Shown: positions 7,151-29,985 of the stretch, piece after piece
Position numbering within the stretch: position 1 is the first letter of the stretch
Layout: the number at the start of each line of letters is the position of its first letter
Origin: a bacterium
GTDB taxonomy: Bacteria > CAIJMQ01
Length of the DNA stretch: 33,105 nt
Direction of reading: 5' to 3'
Assembly: GCA_023135785.1 (NCBI GenBank)
Contig: JAGLSL010000040.1
Location: 1-33,105, forward strand
Position numbers and translations under genes: made by a program
The notes under the pieces: generated by a model
Told to the model about the DNA's origin: nothing
What the model saw: only the letters and a program-made list of their open reading frames with translations
The model's database searches: none

Positions 7151-7222
7151 ATTTCCTCACTCCGTTCGGTCAGAAATCAGATGTCAGAATACAGAAAAAC
7201 ACATAATGAAAAAAATATAATA

Positions 7223-7297
7223 GATATACGTAGAAATATGATAGAAATACATTGTAGCGAAGCAATATATTTTAATTGCATTTCAATATTTTATTTC
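7223..7297. repeat. Phased GAAATA/TATTTC inverted repeat, copy 3
   Basis: The left arm has GATATA at 7223 and GAAATA at 7233 and 7244. The right arm is degenerate: TATTTT at 7268, CATTTC at 7279, TATTTC at 7292. The centre pairs CATTG with CAAT around TAGCGAAG. It lies 72 nt upstream of the PAP2 start. Confidence 0.65.
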
Positions 7298-7320
7298 TAT
7301 CTTTTTTTTTCTGTCCTCTG

Positions 7321-7398
7321 CGCCCAAAGCTGTTAATAAAATAAATTCAACTCTTTGGGCGTCCCCCCTGTTAGTTTTCAAAAGGAAAACTAGGGGGG
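7321..7398. repeat. Two adjacent hairpins (9-bp and about 14-bp stems)
   Basis: CGCCCAAAG (7321-7329) pairs perfectly with CTTTGGGCG (7353-7361). Two nucleotides on, CCCCCC-TGT-TAGTTTTC (7363-7379) pairs with GAAAACTA-GGGGGG (7385-7398), leaving TGT bulged. They follow the hom stop codon in minus-strand transcripts. No T-run follows either stem on the minus strand, so a simple intrinsic terminator is not supported; transcript end protection or a repeat element is possible. Confidence 0.7.
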
Positions 7399-7437
7399 AT
7401 ATACTTCTTCTGTCGTCTGTTCTCTGTCTTCTGTGTA

Positions 7438-10067: not shown

Positions 10068-10088
10068 ATATTTTTATTTTCTTAATGT

Positions 10089-10109
10089 AAAAATTAAATA
10101 TCAAATATC
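10089..10109. repeat. 20-nt dispersed repeat, matching 28643-28662 in reverse complement
   Basis: AAAAATTAAATATCAAATAT (10089-10108) is the exact reverse complement of 28643-28662. AAA words are spaced 7 nt apart (10089, 10096, 10103). A facing TTG-phased stretch with 7-nt steps (10305, 10312, 10319) lies at the other end of the same gap, before the thiL stop, so this may be another heptad-type inverted repeat with a degenerate right arm. Confidence 0.45.
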
Positions 10110-10111
10110 AC

Positions 10112-10217
10112 CCCTAGAAATTCAGAGAATTTCAGGCCACTAGGAATGCAGAGCATTCCAGGGATTTAGTCCCTTTCTAGGGAGACCAAGTCCTCGCAAT
10201 TTTAAAAATTGCAGAGG
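10112..10217. repeat. Cloverleaf-like hairpin cluster
   Basis: CCCTA (10112-10116) pairs with TAGGG (10178-10182) and encloses three hairpins: GAAATTC-AGA-GAATTTC (10117-10133), GGAATGC-AGA-GCATTCC (10143-10159) and GGGA-TTTAG-TCCC (10161-10173). A fourth hairpin follows with GCAATT (10196-10201) and AATTGC (10207-10212), extended by CCTC/GAGG. The first two hairpins are related 23-nt units whose differences are paired substitutions. An alternative 9-bp closing stem CCCTAGAAA/TTTCTAGGG competes with the first hairpin. It lies between thiL and tsaE; strand of action is unknown. Confidence 0.7.
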
Positions 10218-10331
10218 GAAATTACATATTAAAGTTAAAGTTTAAAATTTTTTATAATTCTTGAAATCTTGAAATTTTTGAGTTTTGATTTATCGTTTTA
10301 CTTTTTGCACTTTGATTTTTGCATTAATCTG

Positions 10332-14989: not shown

Positions 14990-15005
14990 ATCTTTCAAAA
15001 TAATA

Positions 15006-15097
15006 GAAATACAGTGGATATGCATAGAAATACGGTAGATATATGTAGTAAAAAAACAATGTATTTCAATTTATTTCTATTTATTTCAATCTATTTC
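15006..15097. repeat. Phased GAAATA/TATTTC inverted repeat, copy 4 (best preserved)
   Basis: The left arm has GAAATA 15006, GATATG 15017, GAAATA 15027, GATATA 15038 (spacings 11, 10, 11). The right arm has TATTTC at 15062, 15072, 15082 and 15092 (10, 10, 10). It ends 22 nt before queE and directly abuts the queE -10 box. Confidence 0.85.
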
Positions 15098-16495: not shown

Positions 16496-16927
16496 ATGGA
16501 AAATGTTAAGATAAAACTGATGAATAAAGACAGAATAAAAGGGCTGAAACTGCTTGGTGAGAAGAAGATTAAATTTCCCCTTTCTCCCGAAGAGGCACAG
16601 CTTGAAGTATTTGATAATGCTTATCCCAAAAGGGATTATTGGATAGAGTTTGTTTGTCCGGAGTTCACATCTATATGCCCTGTAACAAGCCAGCCGGATT
16701 TTGGTAAAATAACCATCCAGTATGTTCCCGATAAAAAGTGTATAGAATCAAAATCTTTAAAGTTTTTTATGTTTTCGTTTCGTAACTGTGGCAGTTTTGC
16801 GGAAGATATTGTTAATAGAATATTGGAAAAAGTAGTTAAGGCAGCTAAACCGAGAAAAGCAAAGGTTGTAGGAGAATTTGTCGCAAGAGGCGGAATAGCT
16901 ATAAAAATTGAAGCGGAATACCCTTGA
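16496..16927 (+). CDS. queF: NADPH-dependent 7-cyano-7-deazaguanine reductase
   Basis: The 143-residue enzyme reduces preQ0 to preQ1. It is the short unimodular type. TSICPVTSQPDFG contains the nucleophile Cys61 and the proton donor Asp68. ESKSLKFF is the QueF motif involved in NADPH binding, followed by SFRNCGSFAED and GEFVARGGIAI. In other family members the segment after FRN reads approximately H/E-G-x-F-H-E; here the second His, which contacts substrate, is replaced by Ala102, while Glu103 is kept. It closes the queD-queE-queF group; queC and a GTP cyclohydrolase are not in the window. Confidence 0.9.
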   Translation: MENVKIKLMNKDRIKGLKLLGEKKIKFPLSPEEAQLEVFDNAYPKRDYWIEFVCPEFTSICPVTSQPDFGKITIQYVPDKKCIESKSLKFFMFSFRNCGSFAEDIVNRILEKVVKAAKPRKAKVVGEFVARGGIAIKIEAEYP

Positions 16928-16949
16928 AAAAGGAGCAAAGAAAGAATTT

Positions 16950-17077
16950 CCAATACCCAATTTCTAATTTCTATTGAATATCTAACTTATAAATTTCAAA
17001 ATGATAGAATATGAGAAAATATTTGGGGACATTGGACATTTCATTAGGAATTGGATATTAGTAATTAGGAATTTATT
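16950..17077. repeat. Heptad-phased inverted repeat (CCAATTT / ATTAGGA words)
   Basis: The left arm is read as consecutive heptamers CCAATAC, CCAATTT, CTAATTT, CTATTGA, ATATCTA from 16950 to 16984. The right arm is ATTAGGA, ATTGGAT, ATTAGTA, ATTAGGA, ATTTATT from 17043 to 17077. The arms are imperfect reverse complements that keep 7-nt phase across a 58-nt centre. The right arm ends 2 nt before the deaminase start, and its last AGGA (17067-17070) is the only Shine-Dalgarno-like sequence there. Confidence 0.75.
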
Positions 17078-17079
17078 TT

Positions 17080-17777: not shown

Positions 17778-17845
17778 TCGTGAGAACATTAAAGTTTCCC
17801 CTTGCCTTATGGAACAGACGTGCAAATTGCCGATTAATAACGGTA

Positions 17846-17938
17846 GAAATACGGTGGATATACAATGGATATATATGGAAATACATAGTCGATGGACAAT
17901 TTATTTCAACATATTTCTATTTATTTCTATTGTATTTC
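17846..17938. repeat. Phased GAAATA/TATTTC inverted repeat, copy 5
   Basis: The left arm has GAAATA 17846, GATATA 17857, GATATA 17868, GAAATA 17878 (spacings 11, 11, 10). The right arm has TATTTC at 17902, 17912, 17922, 17933 (10, 10, 11). It lies between the promoter at 17724 and nrdR, so it should be transcribed in the 5' leader; it ends 22 nt before the nrdR ATG. Confidence 0.85.
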
Positions 17939-20849: not shown

Positions 20850-21035
20850 AATTCCGTCTGCTTGCTCCGATGTTACGTCGGAGAGGGCAGGTCTCCGGGT
20901 ACAGTTTTACAACGGGAATCGGAGGGTTGGAACAAAACTAATAAACCCCGAAGGAAATTCCGTCTTTTTGCTTGCGGGCAGGATTGTCGGGAGTCGTTGC
21001 AATTTGCTATGGGACGAGGCATTATTCCAACGGGG
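20850..21035 (+). other. Structured, partly duplicated leader before the redoxin gene
   Basis: The 209-nt gap between nrdD and the redoxin is more GC-rich than its surroundings. AATTCCGTCT occurs at 20850 and 20956, each followed by GCTTGC and later GGGCAGG, so the gap looks like two diverged tandem units of about 106 nt. CTCCGA (20865-20870) pairs with TCGGAG (20878-20883). TTGGAA (20927) and CCCCG (20946) are each complementary to part of TTCCAACGGGG (21025-21035) but cannot both pair in one nested fold. AACCCCG...CGGGGTAA echoes the cimA and PAP2 leader arms. No known riboswitch was recognised. Confidence 0.4.
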
Positions 21036-21368: not shown

Positions 21369-22711
21369 GTATTTTCAAGAAATTTGGAAGCAGACTGGAA
21401 ATAAATCTCTTTGTCTGCGTCTTGAGGCAGGCGTCCTTCTATTATCTCGTTCATTACGAAGTCCTTAATTTTTCCTATCATTGGCCCTGCAGAAAGATTG
21501 AACTGTTTCATAATGTCGTCTCCGGAAATGGGACATTTTAATTCTTTTATGGATTTTAAATCTTTAATTCTTTCTCCCAACTCATCAAGTATCTTGATTT
21601 TTTCTCTTACCTTTTCTTTTCTGTACGAAGTTATATCGCAACGAGATAACATAAGAACTTTATCAAGTCGATGTCCCATATCTTTTATAAATCTTCGCAC
21701 GGCGGAATCTGTCCATTTCCGTGTATAAAGGTTGGCACGCATATGTTTTGCTATTAAAAACGATATATCTTCTTTAAGTTCCTTTGGAAACTTCAGACGT
21801 GAGAGGATAGAGTAAGCCATCTTTGAGCCTAGTTCCTCGTGTCTGTAAAAATGAATCTCGTTTTTTTCTACTGCTTTTACATACGGTTTTGCAATATCGT
21901 GTAATAATGTTGCCCATCTCAAAGTTTCGTCTTTGGGCGTATTTTCAACTACTTTTAAAGTATGTAGCCATACATCTTTATGGTGATGGTCGCTTTCTTG
22001 ATGTAGGTTTTTTAACGGATACAATTCCGGTATGAAAAAATTCAAAATCTTTGCGTTCATCATATCTGTTAATGCTTTTATGACAAACTCTCCGAGTAAG
22101 AGTTTATTCATTTCTGCTCGAATTCTCTCTTCGGAAATATACATTATTCTAAACGCATTTTTTTCGATTGATTTATAGGTCGCGTTTTCTATTTTGAACC
22201 CTAGTTGGGATTGAAAACGAAACGCTCTTAAAATTCTTAAAGGGTCATCCTGAAAAGATTCATCCGGATGAGAAGGCGTACGTATTATTTTTTCCGAAAG
22301 ATCTTTGGCTCCGTTATATATATCTATGATTTTTCCCTCGGGAGAGATTGCAAGCGTATTAATGGTAAAATCCCTTCGTTTAAGATCTTCCTCAAAATTT
22401 GTGCCGAATTCTACTGCAGGTTTTCTATTTCGGGGACGATATGTTTCTTTTTTTCTGTAAGTTGTTATATGTAGCTCTTTGCCATCGATGATAGCTCCAA
22501 CAGTGCCAAAAGCTATCCCCACGGGAAAGTTTTTAATCTTATTCTTATTCAGTATTTCTCTTGTCTTTTGTGGTGGGAAAGAAGTGGCAAAATCAAAATC
22601 TGTTAATTCTTTATTCAGAAGCATATCTCTAACAGAACCGCCTACGAGAAAAATTTCCCCTTTTTCTTTTTTGAATATCTCGTATATTTTTTTGAATATA
22701 CCCATTTCCAT
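21359..22711 (-). CDS. cca: CCA tRNA nucleotidyltransferase / poly(A) polymerase family, with HD domain
   Basis: The 450-residue product adds or repairs tRNA 3' CCA ends, or has a related nucleotidyltransferase role. The N-terminal class II head has LVGGSVRDMLLNKELTDFDFAT (the GGxVRD and DxD metal site), then RRDFTINTLAI and DDPLRILRAFRF. An HD domain follows with HDIAKP preceded by HHHKDVWLHTLKV, then a C-terminal RNA-binding part. I chose ATG 22711. A TTG at 22720 lies within a TATAAT box, and ATG 22705 is also possible. Since the only tRNA in the window already encodes CCA, a repair role is plausible. Whether it is an A-adding or CCA-adding type cannot be told by eye. Confidence 0.88.
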   Translation of the reverse strand: MEMGIFKKIYEIFKKEKGEIFLVGGSVRDMLLNKELTDFDFATSFPPQKTREILNKNKIKNFPVGIAFGTVGAIIDGKELHITTYRKKETYRPRNRKPAVEFGTNFEEDLKRRDFTINTLAISPEGKIIDIYNGAKDLSEKIIRTPSHPDESFQDDPLRILRAFRFQSQLGFKIENATYKSIEKNAFRIMYISEERIRAEMNKLLLGEFVIKALTDMMNAKILNFFIPELYPLKNLHQESDHHHKDVWLHTLKVVENTPKDETLRWATLLHDIAKPYVKAVEKNEIHFYRHEELGSKMAYSILSRLKFPKELKEDISFLIAKHMRANLYTRKWTDSAVRRFIKDMGHRLDKVLMLSRCDITSYRKEKVREKIKILDELGERIKDLKSIKELKCPISGDDIMKQFNLSAGPMIGKIKDFVMNEIIEGRLPQDADKEIYFQSASKFLENTKK

Positions 22712-22719
22712 AATGGGCA

Positions 22720-22751
22720 ATTATAGCACAGCTTATAGATTGTGGTATAAT
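22720..22751. promoter_or_regulatory. Overlapping divergent promoter elements (cca and sensor kinase)
   Basis: On the minus strand TATAAT occupies 22725-22720, 8 nt before cca ATG 22711. On the plus strand TGGTATAAT (22743-22751) is an extended -10 box for the kinase gene. The two -10 boxes are 20 bp apart, so simultaneous polymerase binding should be hindered. Neither has a convincing -35. Confidence 0.5.
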
Positions 22752-22765
22752 GACTACACCTTTTG

Positions 22766-22838
22766 GACAGAAGACTATAGACCAAAGACCATAGACTAAA
22801 AAAAGGTCTTTAGTCTTCGGTCTTCAGTCTTTGGTCTT
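22766..22838. repeat. Heptad-phased inverted repeat (GAC / GTC words), 5 + 5 units
   Basis: GAC occurs at 22766, 22773, 22780, 22787 and 22794. GTC occurs at 22806, 22813, 22820, 22827 and 22834. Both arms are exactly 7-nt periodic and face each other across a short A-rich loop. The unit is roughly AGACCAA on the left and GTCTTTG on the right. It lies in the predicted 5' leader of the sensor kinase and ends 8 nt before its ATG. Confidence 0.85.
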
Positions 22839-22846
22839 ATATTAAT

Positions 22847-24523
22847 ATGAGAATCTTTAAATCCAGATTACAAAAAAAACTTATACTTTCTTTTCTTGCC
22901 GTTGGTATAGCTCCAATGGTTATATCGATTTTTATGACTACTCAAATTATGTCCAGGCGCGTGGAAGAAGACATTAAAAACACCATATATGACGCTTATA
23001 ATTTAGCGGAAGAGGAAATCACCCAATTACAAGAAATGGCTTTTGAAAGCAATGAACATTACTTGAATCAACCCGAATTCTTTAAAAATACAAAAAAAGC
23101 TTTCTTGGAAATTAAAACATGGGAGGAACAACCCTATTTGCCTATCGCAGAAAATGTTTTCCTTTATAAAGGTCCTCATGCAAAAGAAGGGAAATTGTTT
23201 ATAGAGGTAGGAGTGGGGCAATTAAAGACTTTAATGGCTGGAGTAGTATCGCCCATAAAGGATGAAAACGAAAATGTTATCGGCGGATTGGGAACAGTAT
23301 ATCCCCTAGGTCAGAGATTCGAGCAGAATATAACTCGTCTTACAGGAGTTGCAGTGCGAATTTTTGCAATGGTTTCATCGGAAGAAGAAGAGAAAGAGAT
23401 TAGAGATGTAAAATTCTCCCCAAAAGCCGAAGAAGAAATTTTCCAGAAACACGAAACATATTATGACCAGGGAGCAACATTAAAAGGTAAACCGTATGCT
23501 GCTTTATGTAAACCCTTTATGGGAGAAGACAAAATTTTGGGGCTTATGCTTATAGGTATTCCAAAAACTTATGCTTTCCAAACGGTTCTTAAGGAATATC
23601 TTCCTTTTTTCTTGGGTATATGGATATTAGTAGCCGGAGCCTTGGGATATATCATAACTCGTGGAATAACAAACCCGATAAGCAAATTCATCAAGGGAGC
23701 AAATGCTATTGCATCCGGCGACTTGAACCAACACATTATTCTTAATTCCAAAGATGAAATCGGTAGTTTGGCGTTGGCATTTAACAATATGGCAGCAGAA
23801 CTTAAAAAAATGCAGAAGATGCAGGAAGAACTTAGAAAACTTGATAGGTTGTCTGCTTTGGGGCAACTGACGGCTGAAGTTGCGCATGAGGTTAAAAATC
23901 CGCTGGGCATAATAAAAAACTCCGCGCAAATTTTGGAAAGCAGCCCTTTAGATGAAATAAAAAGAAAGGAAATCGTAAACTTTATCATAGAAGAAGCCGA
24001 ACGTATAAATAAAGTTGTTGATAATTTCCTGCAATTTGCAAAATCGCCAAAAACAAGAAAACAAAAGACTAACATAATTGAAGTATTAAATAGAACTGTT
24101 CAGCTTGTTAGCGACACCTTGGTAAAAAATGATATCGAAGTTATTAAAGAGTATAAAGACTCTGTTCCGTTGATTCGTACTGACCAATCTCAATTGCAGC
24201 AGCTTTTCTTAAATTTAACATTAAATGCAATAGAAGCAATGCCTGAAGGAGGCAGGTTGAAAATTTTAACTCAACTTGAATTCGAAAAAACACTTGGACA
24301 TACAAAAGAGCAGTGGATAAAAATTGTTTTTTCAGATACAGGTCGCGGGGTATCTGCCAAACTGAAAAAGAAAATTTTTGAACCTTTTTATACAACGCGC
24401 AAACATGGGACAGGATTGGGTCTATCGATTTCTCGGAAAATTGTGGAAAATCATGGAGGAAAAATTACTTTGGAATCTGAAGTTGGAAAAGGTTCCAGCT
24501 TTAAAATATTACTCCCTGTATAA
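22847..24523 (+). CDS. Membrane sensor histidine kinase (Cache-HAMP-HisKA-HATPase)
   Basis: The 558-residue kinase has a first membrane helix (about 10-31), an extracytoplasmic sensor region (about 35-245) resembling single Cache domains (GVVSPIKDENENVIGGLGTVYPL), a second helix (251-271) and a HAMP domain (about 272-325). The HisKA domain has AEVAHEVKNPLG with phospho-acceptor His347. The HATPase domain has the N box NLTLNAIEAM, DTGRG and GTGLGLSIS. It resembles NtrB/ZraS-type partners of sigma-54 activators, and such an activator follows 12 nt after its stop. The signal is unknown; small carboxylates are common Cache ligands. Confidence 0.93.
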   Translation: MRIFKSRLQKKLILSFLAVGIAPMVISIFMTTQIMSRRVEEDIKNTIYDAYNLAEEEITQLQEMAFESNEHYLNQPEFFKNTKKAFLEIKTWEEQPYLPIAENVFLYKGPHAKEGKLFIEVGVGQLKTLMAGVVSPIKDENENVIGGLGTVYPLGQRFEQNITRLTGVAVRIFAMVSSEEEEKEIRDVKFSPKAEEEIFQKHETYYDQGATLKGKPYAALCKPFMGEDKILGLMLIGIPKTYAFQTVLKEYLPFFLGIWILVAGALGYIITRGITNPISKFIKGANAIASGDLNQHIILNSKDEIGSLALAFNNMAAELKKMQKMQEELRKLDRLSALGQLTAEVAHEVKNPLGIIKNSAQILESSPLDEIKRKEIVNFIIEEAERINKVVDNFLQFAKSPKTRKQKTNIIEVLNRTVQLVSDTLVKNDIEVIKEYKDSVPLIRTDQSQLQQLFLNLTLNAIEAMPEGGRLKILTQLEFEKTLGHTKEQWIKIVFSDTGRGVSAKLKKKIFEPFYTTRKHGTGLGLSISRKIVENHGGKITLESEVGKGSSFKILLPV

Positions 24524-28447: not shown

Positions 28448-28458
28448 ATTGCAAGACG

Positions 28459-28629
28459 GAAATACGGTGGAAATACAATGGATATACAGTAGAAATACGT
28501 TGTTGGGGATTTGGAATTGAAAAATTACACACTACAAAACAAGGCAAAAAACTAAGAATAATGACAATGTATCTCAATATATTTCCATTTTATTTCGACT
28601 TATATCAAGATGTTGTTTCTATTTATTTC
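28459..28629. repeat. Phased GAAATA/TATTTC inverted repeat, copy 6 (long centre)
   Basis: The left arm has GAAATA 28459 and 28470, GATATA 28481, GAAATA 28492 (11, 11, 11). The right arm has TATCTC 28570, TATTTC 28580 and 28591, TATATC 28601, TGTTTC 28614, TATTTC 28624. The arms are separated by about 70 nt, longer than in other copies, as if something had been inserted in the centre. It lies 46 nt upstream of purA. Confidence 0.75.
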
Positions 28630-28642
28630 TATCCAATTTTTA

Positions 28643-29985
<1,343 letters not shown>

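Follow-up and report, generated by a model that had tools for sequence, protein, structure and literature searches.

The window, meaning the whole 33,105-nucleotide stretch analysed here, is contig 40 of a genome (G000) of 1,338,180 bases in 104 contigs that is 96% complete. A CCA-adding enzyme encoded in the window shares 96% identity with one from a Candidatus Omnitrophota MAG (Modern_marine.mb.319), and G000 is a relative of Candidatus Omnitrophota MAGs. Between the gene for this enzyme and a histidine kinase gene lies a foldback element built of 7-nt units (heptads), in which a left arm of five GAC-YRAA heptads (22766-22800, forward strand) faces a right arm carrying five units of the GAC word on the opposite strand (22803-22842). 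A TATAAT can be read upstream of the element at 22746-22751, which the promoter scan did not report.

To assess facing arms, we looked for one triplet recurring in exact 7-nt steps opposite a run of its complement, and compared the length of the longest such run with that in 2000 Markov-shuffled versions of the intergenic region concerned. The run of five in 22721-22846 was reached by 0 of 2000 shuffles. Runs of four, likewise reached by none of 2000 shuffles, were found in 7151-7437, where four CAGA heptads (7169-7198, forward strand) face four TCTG heptads (7405-7437, reverse strand), and in 16928-17079, where YAATTTC heptads (16944-16977, forward) face ATTRGGA heptads (17043-17077, reverse). 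These three are the clear cases of an earlier, sequence-only reading of the window (at 22766, 7171 and 16950), and the sequences agree with its description. Its three weaker cases had mixed outcomes. For 10068-10331, an arm of AAATATC heptads (10082-10115, forward) and a partner of TTTTGAT-type heptads read from the sequence (about 10280-10327, reverse) were tested jointly and gave a run of three that 17 of 2000 shuffles reached. In 28448-28675 the run of two was reached by 1056 of 2000 shuffles, leaving a lone, unstranded period-7 array at 28630-28674 with no facing arm above chance, and the two units at 184/332 (249 of 2000 shuffles) were not above chance. Overall, four of the six cases hold up, that at 10068-10331 moderately so, whereas the other two fail as facing arms.

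The same reading had proposed a lag-7 autocorrelation scan of intergenic DNA, a search for facing complementary arms elsewhere in the genome, and a comparison of the same loci in a close relative. Using simple longest-ORF gene calls, we sampled 576,744 of the 1,338,180 bases of G000 (356 intergenic regions of at least 40 nt, 60,290 bases in total) and 615,000 of about 1.5 million bases of a close relative, G001. Intergenic autocorrelation in G000 gave z = 12.3 at lag 7, 9.1 at lag 14 and 8.6 at lag 21; the corresponding values in G001 (394,435-base sample) were 13.7, 7.3 and 2.9. Lag 2 was the sole other prominent lag in the range 2-36 (z = 8.6 in G000 and 4.4 in G001). Period-7 arrays occupied 83 of the 356 G000 regions and numbered 112, compared with 2-10 in ten shuffles and with 3-9 at each of the control lags 5, 6, 8, 9, 12 and 13. 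Where two arms shared a region (n = 53), the inverted relation beat the direct one in 43 pairs, and 33 pairs exceeded the 95th percentile of unrelated arms when inverted compared to 6 when direct. This confirms that exact period-7 arrays in inverted layout are real and general, and more extensive than first noted.

To describe the words themselves, 214 arms were clustered without any preset word. Six clusters of 18-33 arms, with the words TTTnAWT, nRWTTAC, YAATTnC, TWWACTA, TWWRGTC and nRWCAGA, held 146 of the 214. The idea of a different word at each locus is thus correct within the window and fails genome-wide, while that of a shared architecture with several words, rather than one sequence family, is borne out by six word clusters in one inverted period-7 layout. 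The cluster profiles show 3-4 conserved anchor positions per family (1.2-1.9 bits), with others at about 0-0.6 bits; in the GTAA/TTAC profile a kept position reaches 1.85 bits and a near-free one 0.02. Anchors that are invariant in pattern-found arms are circular, the patterns having demanded them. Nor is a mismatch-phase test of the anchors (t = 17) taken as proof, as one substitution yields two mismatches of the same phase and makes the null too lenient; the word-free profiles take its place. Arms mostly have 4-5 units (range 3-8).

Hand-written patterns for five families were the basis of the family, polarity, unit-similarity and arm-partner tests. By these patterns, 40 elements in G000 and G001 pointed inward and 0 outward. 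In IMG/VR stretches searched with the same patterns, GTAA elements were 10 inward and 2 outward and GAC elements 4 inward and 4 outward; every outward GAC hit and a single inward one were classed as genic. Since both polarities of GAC and GTAA occur in IMG/VR contigs, polarity is a property of the lineage, not of the word. Loops at different loci were more similar than Markov shuffles in the GAC, GTAA and YAAT families, and three GTAA loci at distant places of a single G001 contig had a loop of 27-30 nt in common. The pattern AGTTGTTTTT..ATTA..AATTAC occurred at a single place over three genomes; a looser local search recovered these three GTAA loci amid many A/T-rich background hits.

The anchors bear on the possibility that a protein contacting DNA every 7 bp binds the arrays, with selection holding anchors and spacing; the omega (ParB) ribbon-helix-helix (RHH) protein of plasmid pSM19035 and IHF/HU would be models. 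Because each word family keeps a fixed sequence anchor, a spacing-reading factor would read sequence too. In the excerpts available of PMC9499535, omega acts on 7-10 heptads and needs at least four contiguous ones, direct or inverted, and its parS heptads adjoin one another, each 7-bp unit having an invariant core flanked by free ends. The 3-4 kept positions per family, seen in arms found without a preset word, and the 4-5 units per arm are consistent with such a reader, which would be a new spacing-reading DNA binder. However, a dozen words would demand many proteins, and slots switch word between close relatives (see below). The omega system described in those excerpts has six sites on one plasmid with its own RHH protein, whereas no such protein could be linked to the arrays here. 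G000 has three weak RHH_1 matches and the array-rich genome G005 has none, and counts for RHH_1, one Pfam family, do not track arrays over seven genomes. We therefore consider a heptad-reading protein unlikely.

We also compared array positions with gene orientation. Arrays were found at 7 of 43 convergent, 58 of 233 tandem and 8 of 45 divergent junctions in G000, and at 5 of 21, 29 of 144 and 7 of 35 in G001, so neither sample shows a preference for any junction type. The median distance from array to stop codon was 5.5 nt, compared with 29.5 nt to the start codon. Proximity to stop codons would fit a role at the RNA level, in which hairpins end, process or stabilise intergenic transcripts and the word turns over freely because only pairing matters. 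The DNA at 22760-22842 does fold well beyond shuffles (z = -5.8 on the forward and -7.4 on the reverse strand), but 16944-17077 does not (z = -0.8), facing positions pair below chance rather than co-varying, and convergent junctions are not enriched. There is no terminator-like site within 22600-23000, the arrays lack the features of intrinsic terminators (stem plus T run, convergent enrichment), and an Rfam search of the window matched tRNA only. An RNA function is accordingly very unlikely.

Three more specific roles were rejected. Inward-read heptads bearing stop codons might close all six frames, but CAG arms close an average of 0.25 frames, compared with 0.81 when read outward; GTAA arms do close three frames on entry in 26 of 26 cases. 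Hairpins bridging a distant Shine-Dalgarno sequence to the start codon are not supported either: Shine-Dalgarno-like words were present in 19 of 79 cases between element and start and in 5 of 79 just before the element, compared to 115 of 325 array-free genes. Selection for RNA stems is contradicted by facing positions that show no co-variation and match less often than permuted ones.

The comparison with G001 used 70 comparable intergenic regions of at least 40 nt. Collinear blocks of the two genomes are mostly 90-98% identical (range 88-98). The mean aligned fraction was 26% for the 15 array-bearing regions and 83% for the 55 array-free regions (Mann-Whitney, 1.4e-5). Arrays were present at 15 of these regions in G000, 13 in G001 and 9 in both (Fisher, 3.8e-5), yet the word cluster was the same in only two of those nine; closer reading revealed homologous arrays at a few further loci, for example C34:18183 and C34:9740. 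Families also differ in abundance, with 23 YAAT arms in G000 and 1 in G001 compared to 2 and 27 GTAA arms (Fisher, 1e-11). The 22766 element is missing from the same G001 junction, which measures 23 nt instead of 82 nt, and further collinear junctions were full in one genome and empty or short in the other (93 vs 6, 268 vs -3, 107 vs 5 and 248 vs 19 nt). The 287 nt of 7151-7437 are replaced in G001 by 56 nt with another word. At the collinear junctions no target-site duplication was found for heptad-array insertions, the flanks being replaced or without duplication. The proposed same-locus comparison thus shows both word change and presence against absence. It should also be noted that a CAGA array at 16841-16943 of G000 contig 34 enters the 3' end of a reading frame, and the gene tail therefore differs from that in G001.

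Five further genomes of the phylum (G002-G006) were sampled at 30-80 kb each. G005 is array-rich (14 arrays in 2.7 kb of intergenic DNA, z = 8.8), three arrays were found in the G004 sample, and the lag-7 scan detected none in the samples of G002, G003 and G006, with the pattern search adding one in G002. Arrays are therefore patchy within the phylum, with many in G000, G001 and G005 and some in G004.

In IMG/VR contigs picked for GAC or GTAA words, additional words and facing arms occur as well, across a broad span of G+C content. In a group of phage contigs with tail genes, arrays occupy 122 of 152 intergenic regions at 19 overlapping loci; the loci are mostly 99-100% identical where they overlap, so these counts and those that follow are not independent. 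The phage elements are 118 inward and 0 outward (42 distinct), and their loops contain AAAGGC in 55, its complement GCCTTT in 39 and another sequence in 24. Facing positions in this set are not under-matched (174 of 408 matches compared to 169 ± 5.0 permuted), while neighbouring units resemble each other a little more than after permutation (689 matches compared to 671 ± 10.3, P = 0.043). On the IMG/VR phage contigs L213, L158, L167 and L208 a heptad foldback element lies at most gene junctions; between relatives of 75% identity, one of the compared junctions may be empty or carry a different palindromic element (TGTAGGGGCGGG type). In a cultured phage whose tail protein is related (35% identical), the tail genes follow each other almost without gaps, and there are no arrays. 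Speculatively, the junction elements could be recombination seams between phage modules. The phage element matches plasmids of Microcystis, Mycetohabitans, Pantoea and Annamia. Three of these sequences (L221, L222 and L223), from plasmids of Mycetohabitans, Microcystis and Pantoea, carry arrays of the phage word CAGTRAT, which are direct rather than facing. A plasmid search with the array DNA of the window element gave no match.

We then compared units within and between arms. Neighbouring units within arms of the G000 and G001 families matched 346 times, compared to 351 ± 6.4 after permutation. Facing free positions matched in 192 of 428 cases, below the permuted 212 ± 6.6 (P low 0.001), an effect that comes mainly from GTAA. 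Over five families, arms were no more similar to their own partner than to arms of other elements (combined z = -1.5). The fraction of units in common was 0.03 within the same element and 0.24 between different elements for CAG, and 0.08 and 0.25 for GTAA; these two families were significant, while YAAT showed the opposite tendency (P = 0.11). The under-matched facing units, together with own-partner similarity that is not raised, argue that neither locus-by-locus copying between the two arms nor selection for paired stems shaped the elements. From locus to locus within a family the units stand in different orders, which counts against plain copying of elements, as this would conserve order.

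These measurements bear most directly on growth of the arrays in place, by polymerase slippage in 7-nt steps with template switching between arms, which the sequence-only reading had offered as one of two possible origins, next to a factor that reads spacing. The available text of PMC4679880 cites Mrazek 2007 for the proposal of a 7-nt polymerase contact, and describes heptanucleotides as more frequent than any other long simple repeat in most bacteria. The orthologous arrays at C34:18183 differ between G000 and G001 by exactly one 7-nt unit, and this true gain or loss indicates that unit slippage does occur; at C34:9740 the CAGA array counts 4+4 units in G000 but 1+1 in its G001 counterpart, and the weak neighbour similarity in the phage set points the same way. 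However, in Omnitrophota neighbour similarity is absent, facing units are under-matched and arms are not copies of each other. Furthermore, the fixed 40:0 polarity, the patchy presence among relatives and the far greater conservation of anchors than of spacers all stand against local growth. As the origin of each locus, slippage with template switching is not upheld by these counts, and we judge it rather improbable.

Inverted hairpin elements in gene junctions are also a feature of REP/REPIN-like elements, which a Y1 transposase (RAYT or IS200/IS605) could have moved, and four Y1_Tnp genes are present in G000. To our knowledge, REPs are not built of heptads. Because array-rich G001 has 0 Y1_Tnp matches and G002 has two with few arrays (none in its 80-kb sample by scan, one by pattern), Y1 transposases are disfavoured as the mover, and we regard a REP/REPIN-like origin as extremely improbable. 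The mover search covered the Y1_Tnp and RVT_1 families; copying by a reverse transcriptase or telomerase-like enzyme was rejected, there being no RVT_1 match in G000.

The best account, with roughly even chances of being right in our judgement, is that the arrays are small dispersed foldback elements of degenerate heptads that spread between gene junctions. It builds on direct observations of period, inversion, polarity, anchors, family differences between genomes, turnover and one 7-nt unit indel. Dispersal is favoured because polarity is 40:0 in five families although both polarities exist in IMG/VR contigs, because the YAAT and GTAA families expanded differently in the two genomes, and because loops recur across loci and an arm is at least as similar to arms elsewhere in the genome as to the one that it faces. 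It is also favoured by presence and absence at collinear junctions, patchy occurrence in the phylum, the lack of a junction-orientation preference, and phage contigs whose inward-only elements share the AAAGGC/GCCTTT loop. Several observations count against it: array insertions showed no target-site duplication, Y1 transposases do not track the arrays and G000 has no reverse transcriptase match, unit order varies within families, the shared long loop is limited to 3 of 13 GTAA elements, and in the phage set facing units are not under-matched and neighbours are slightly alike.

On the dispersal account, an element would span about 70-150 bp, with two facing arms around a short, often A/T-rich centre. 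Each arm would mostly comprise 4-5 degenerate heptads, a heptad being a fixed anchor of 3-4 nt plus 3-4 free positions. Several word families per genome, each with its own polarity, would have multiplied separately in each lineage and settled at gene junctions, mostly just 3' of the stop codon. Copies would spread from locus to locus, and turnover would be so fast that a slot often carries a different word in a relative whose genes are about 95% identical. Arm units may be gained, lost and exchanged in 7-nt steps, and perfect stems may be selected against or lost, leaving mismatched facing free positions. The elements are probably neutral or selfish. If they do spread, they would be a main force on the intergenic DNA of array-rich lineages.

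More tentatively, the arrays may belong to a widespread bacterial and phage foldback class written in heptads, in which anchors are conserved while free positions are held different between the two arms, and the stem would therefore open once per seven bases. A large set of words would follow one grammar, burst within a genome and replace each other at junctions, with intergenic DNA largely rewritten while genes stay about 95% identical, and one seven-counting process or protein might lie behind all of them.

Known eukaryotic relatives in form are the foldback transposons FB and Galileo of Drosophila, which have long inverted arms of short tandem repeats and a variable centre; they are much longer and have target-site duplications and a transposase. 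As in MITEs and foldback elements, the arms here are inverted and the many dispersed copies appear to share descent, judging by the 40:0 polarity and the loops common to part of the copies.

Among bacterial systems, direct heptamer arrays are already known (PMC4679880, PMC4692102), and the nearest precedent is the set of paired sites in Geobacter metallireducens (PMC2700814); the following comparisons draw on excerpts of these papers. Among its putative global regulator sites, the G. metallireducens genome paper includes multi-copy pairs, one member on each strand, that consist of five heptanucleotides in tandem. Its class 3 sites, with about five heptads each, resemble the facing arms of 4-5 units found here; its classes 1 and 2 have units that are not 7 nt, and the paired sites lie at varying distances from each other. 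The Geobacter consensus MTYCTGA (reverse complement TCAGRAK) is near the CAGA family nRWCAGA and does not overlap the other families. There, one heptad class of 16 sequences, unique to the species, was proposed as putative IHF/HU sites (PMC2700814), whereas here a genome has many words, families expand in particular lineages, shared slots change word, and phages carry the design too.

The LSSR (Mrazek 2007) and Calothrix STRR (Mazel 1990) repeats, as described in parts of PMC4679880 and PMC4692102, are likewise intergenic, have an exact 7-nt unit and are patchy over bacteria. They run in direct tandem, mostly with a single near-perfect word, and recent slippage would make neighbours most alike; the units described here are degenerate and lie in facing arms of fixed polarity, and neighbours are no more alike than permuted units. 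The intergenic TAACTGA heptamers of Beggiatoaceae occur in 169 direct sets and 1 inverted, nearly always with one word and mostly just upstream of start codons, and 7-nt-step indels are reported between two Cyanothece strains (available text of PMC4679880). The GGGNATC heptamers of Xanthomonas and Nostoc are also intergenic and prefer four units, but are direct repeats that form G-quadruplexes, unlike facing arms (PMC4692102, in the portion available). In the PMC papers that our search covered, we found no account of a heptad class with many words, fixed polarity and fast turnover. The reason why bacteria favour heptanucleotides among long repeats has been an open question since at least 2007, according to the available text of PMC4679880, and the G000/G001 pair makes it testable: facing units, one polarity per family, anchors, avoidance of arm-to-arm identity and word change at slots are not given by plain slippage.

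Other repeat classes lie near the heptad elements. One has a period of 10-11 nt, with GAAATACRGTRGATA-type units facing CAATATATTT-type units, and occurs in the window at 23-63, 7213-7310, 15003-15097, 17840-17938 and 28458-28620; the G000 sample contains 30 arrays at lag 10 and 24 at lag 11. At C40:3273 this class fills a slot that is occupied in G001 by a GTAA heptad element. GC-rich hairpins of the CCCCGTTAG...CTAACGGGG type were found at 20947-21035 of the window and on G001 contig 10 near 3774 and 87188. They are missing from the other genome and flanked by direct duplications of 5-6 nt (TAAAC, GGTAAA, GTAAA), and are ordinary MITE-like insertions. In two places of the window heptad arms surround other hairpins, as if the elements had inserted into each other: those at 7169-7437 enclose the period-10 class and a CCCCCC...GGGGGG hairpin, and those at 10082-10327 enclose a CCCCTAGAAATTCAGAGAATTTC element. 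Similarly, at 1975-2242 of G000 contig 16 an element of the form TGTCATTGCGAG...GCAATC, a motif that we take to be a common repeat in several phyla, lies within heptad arms.
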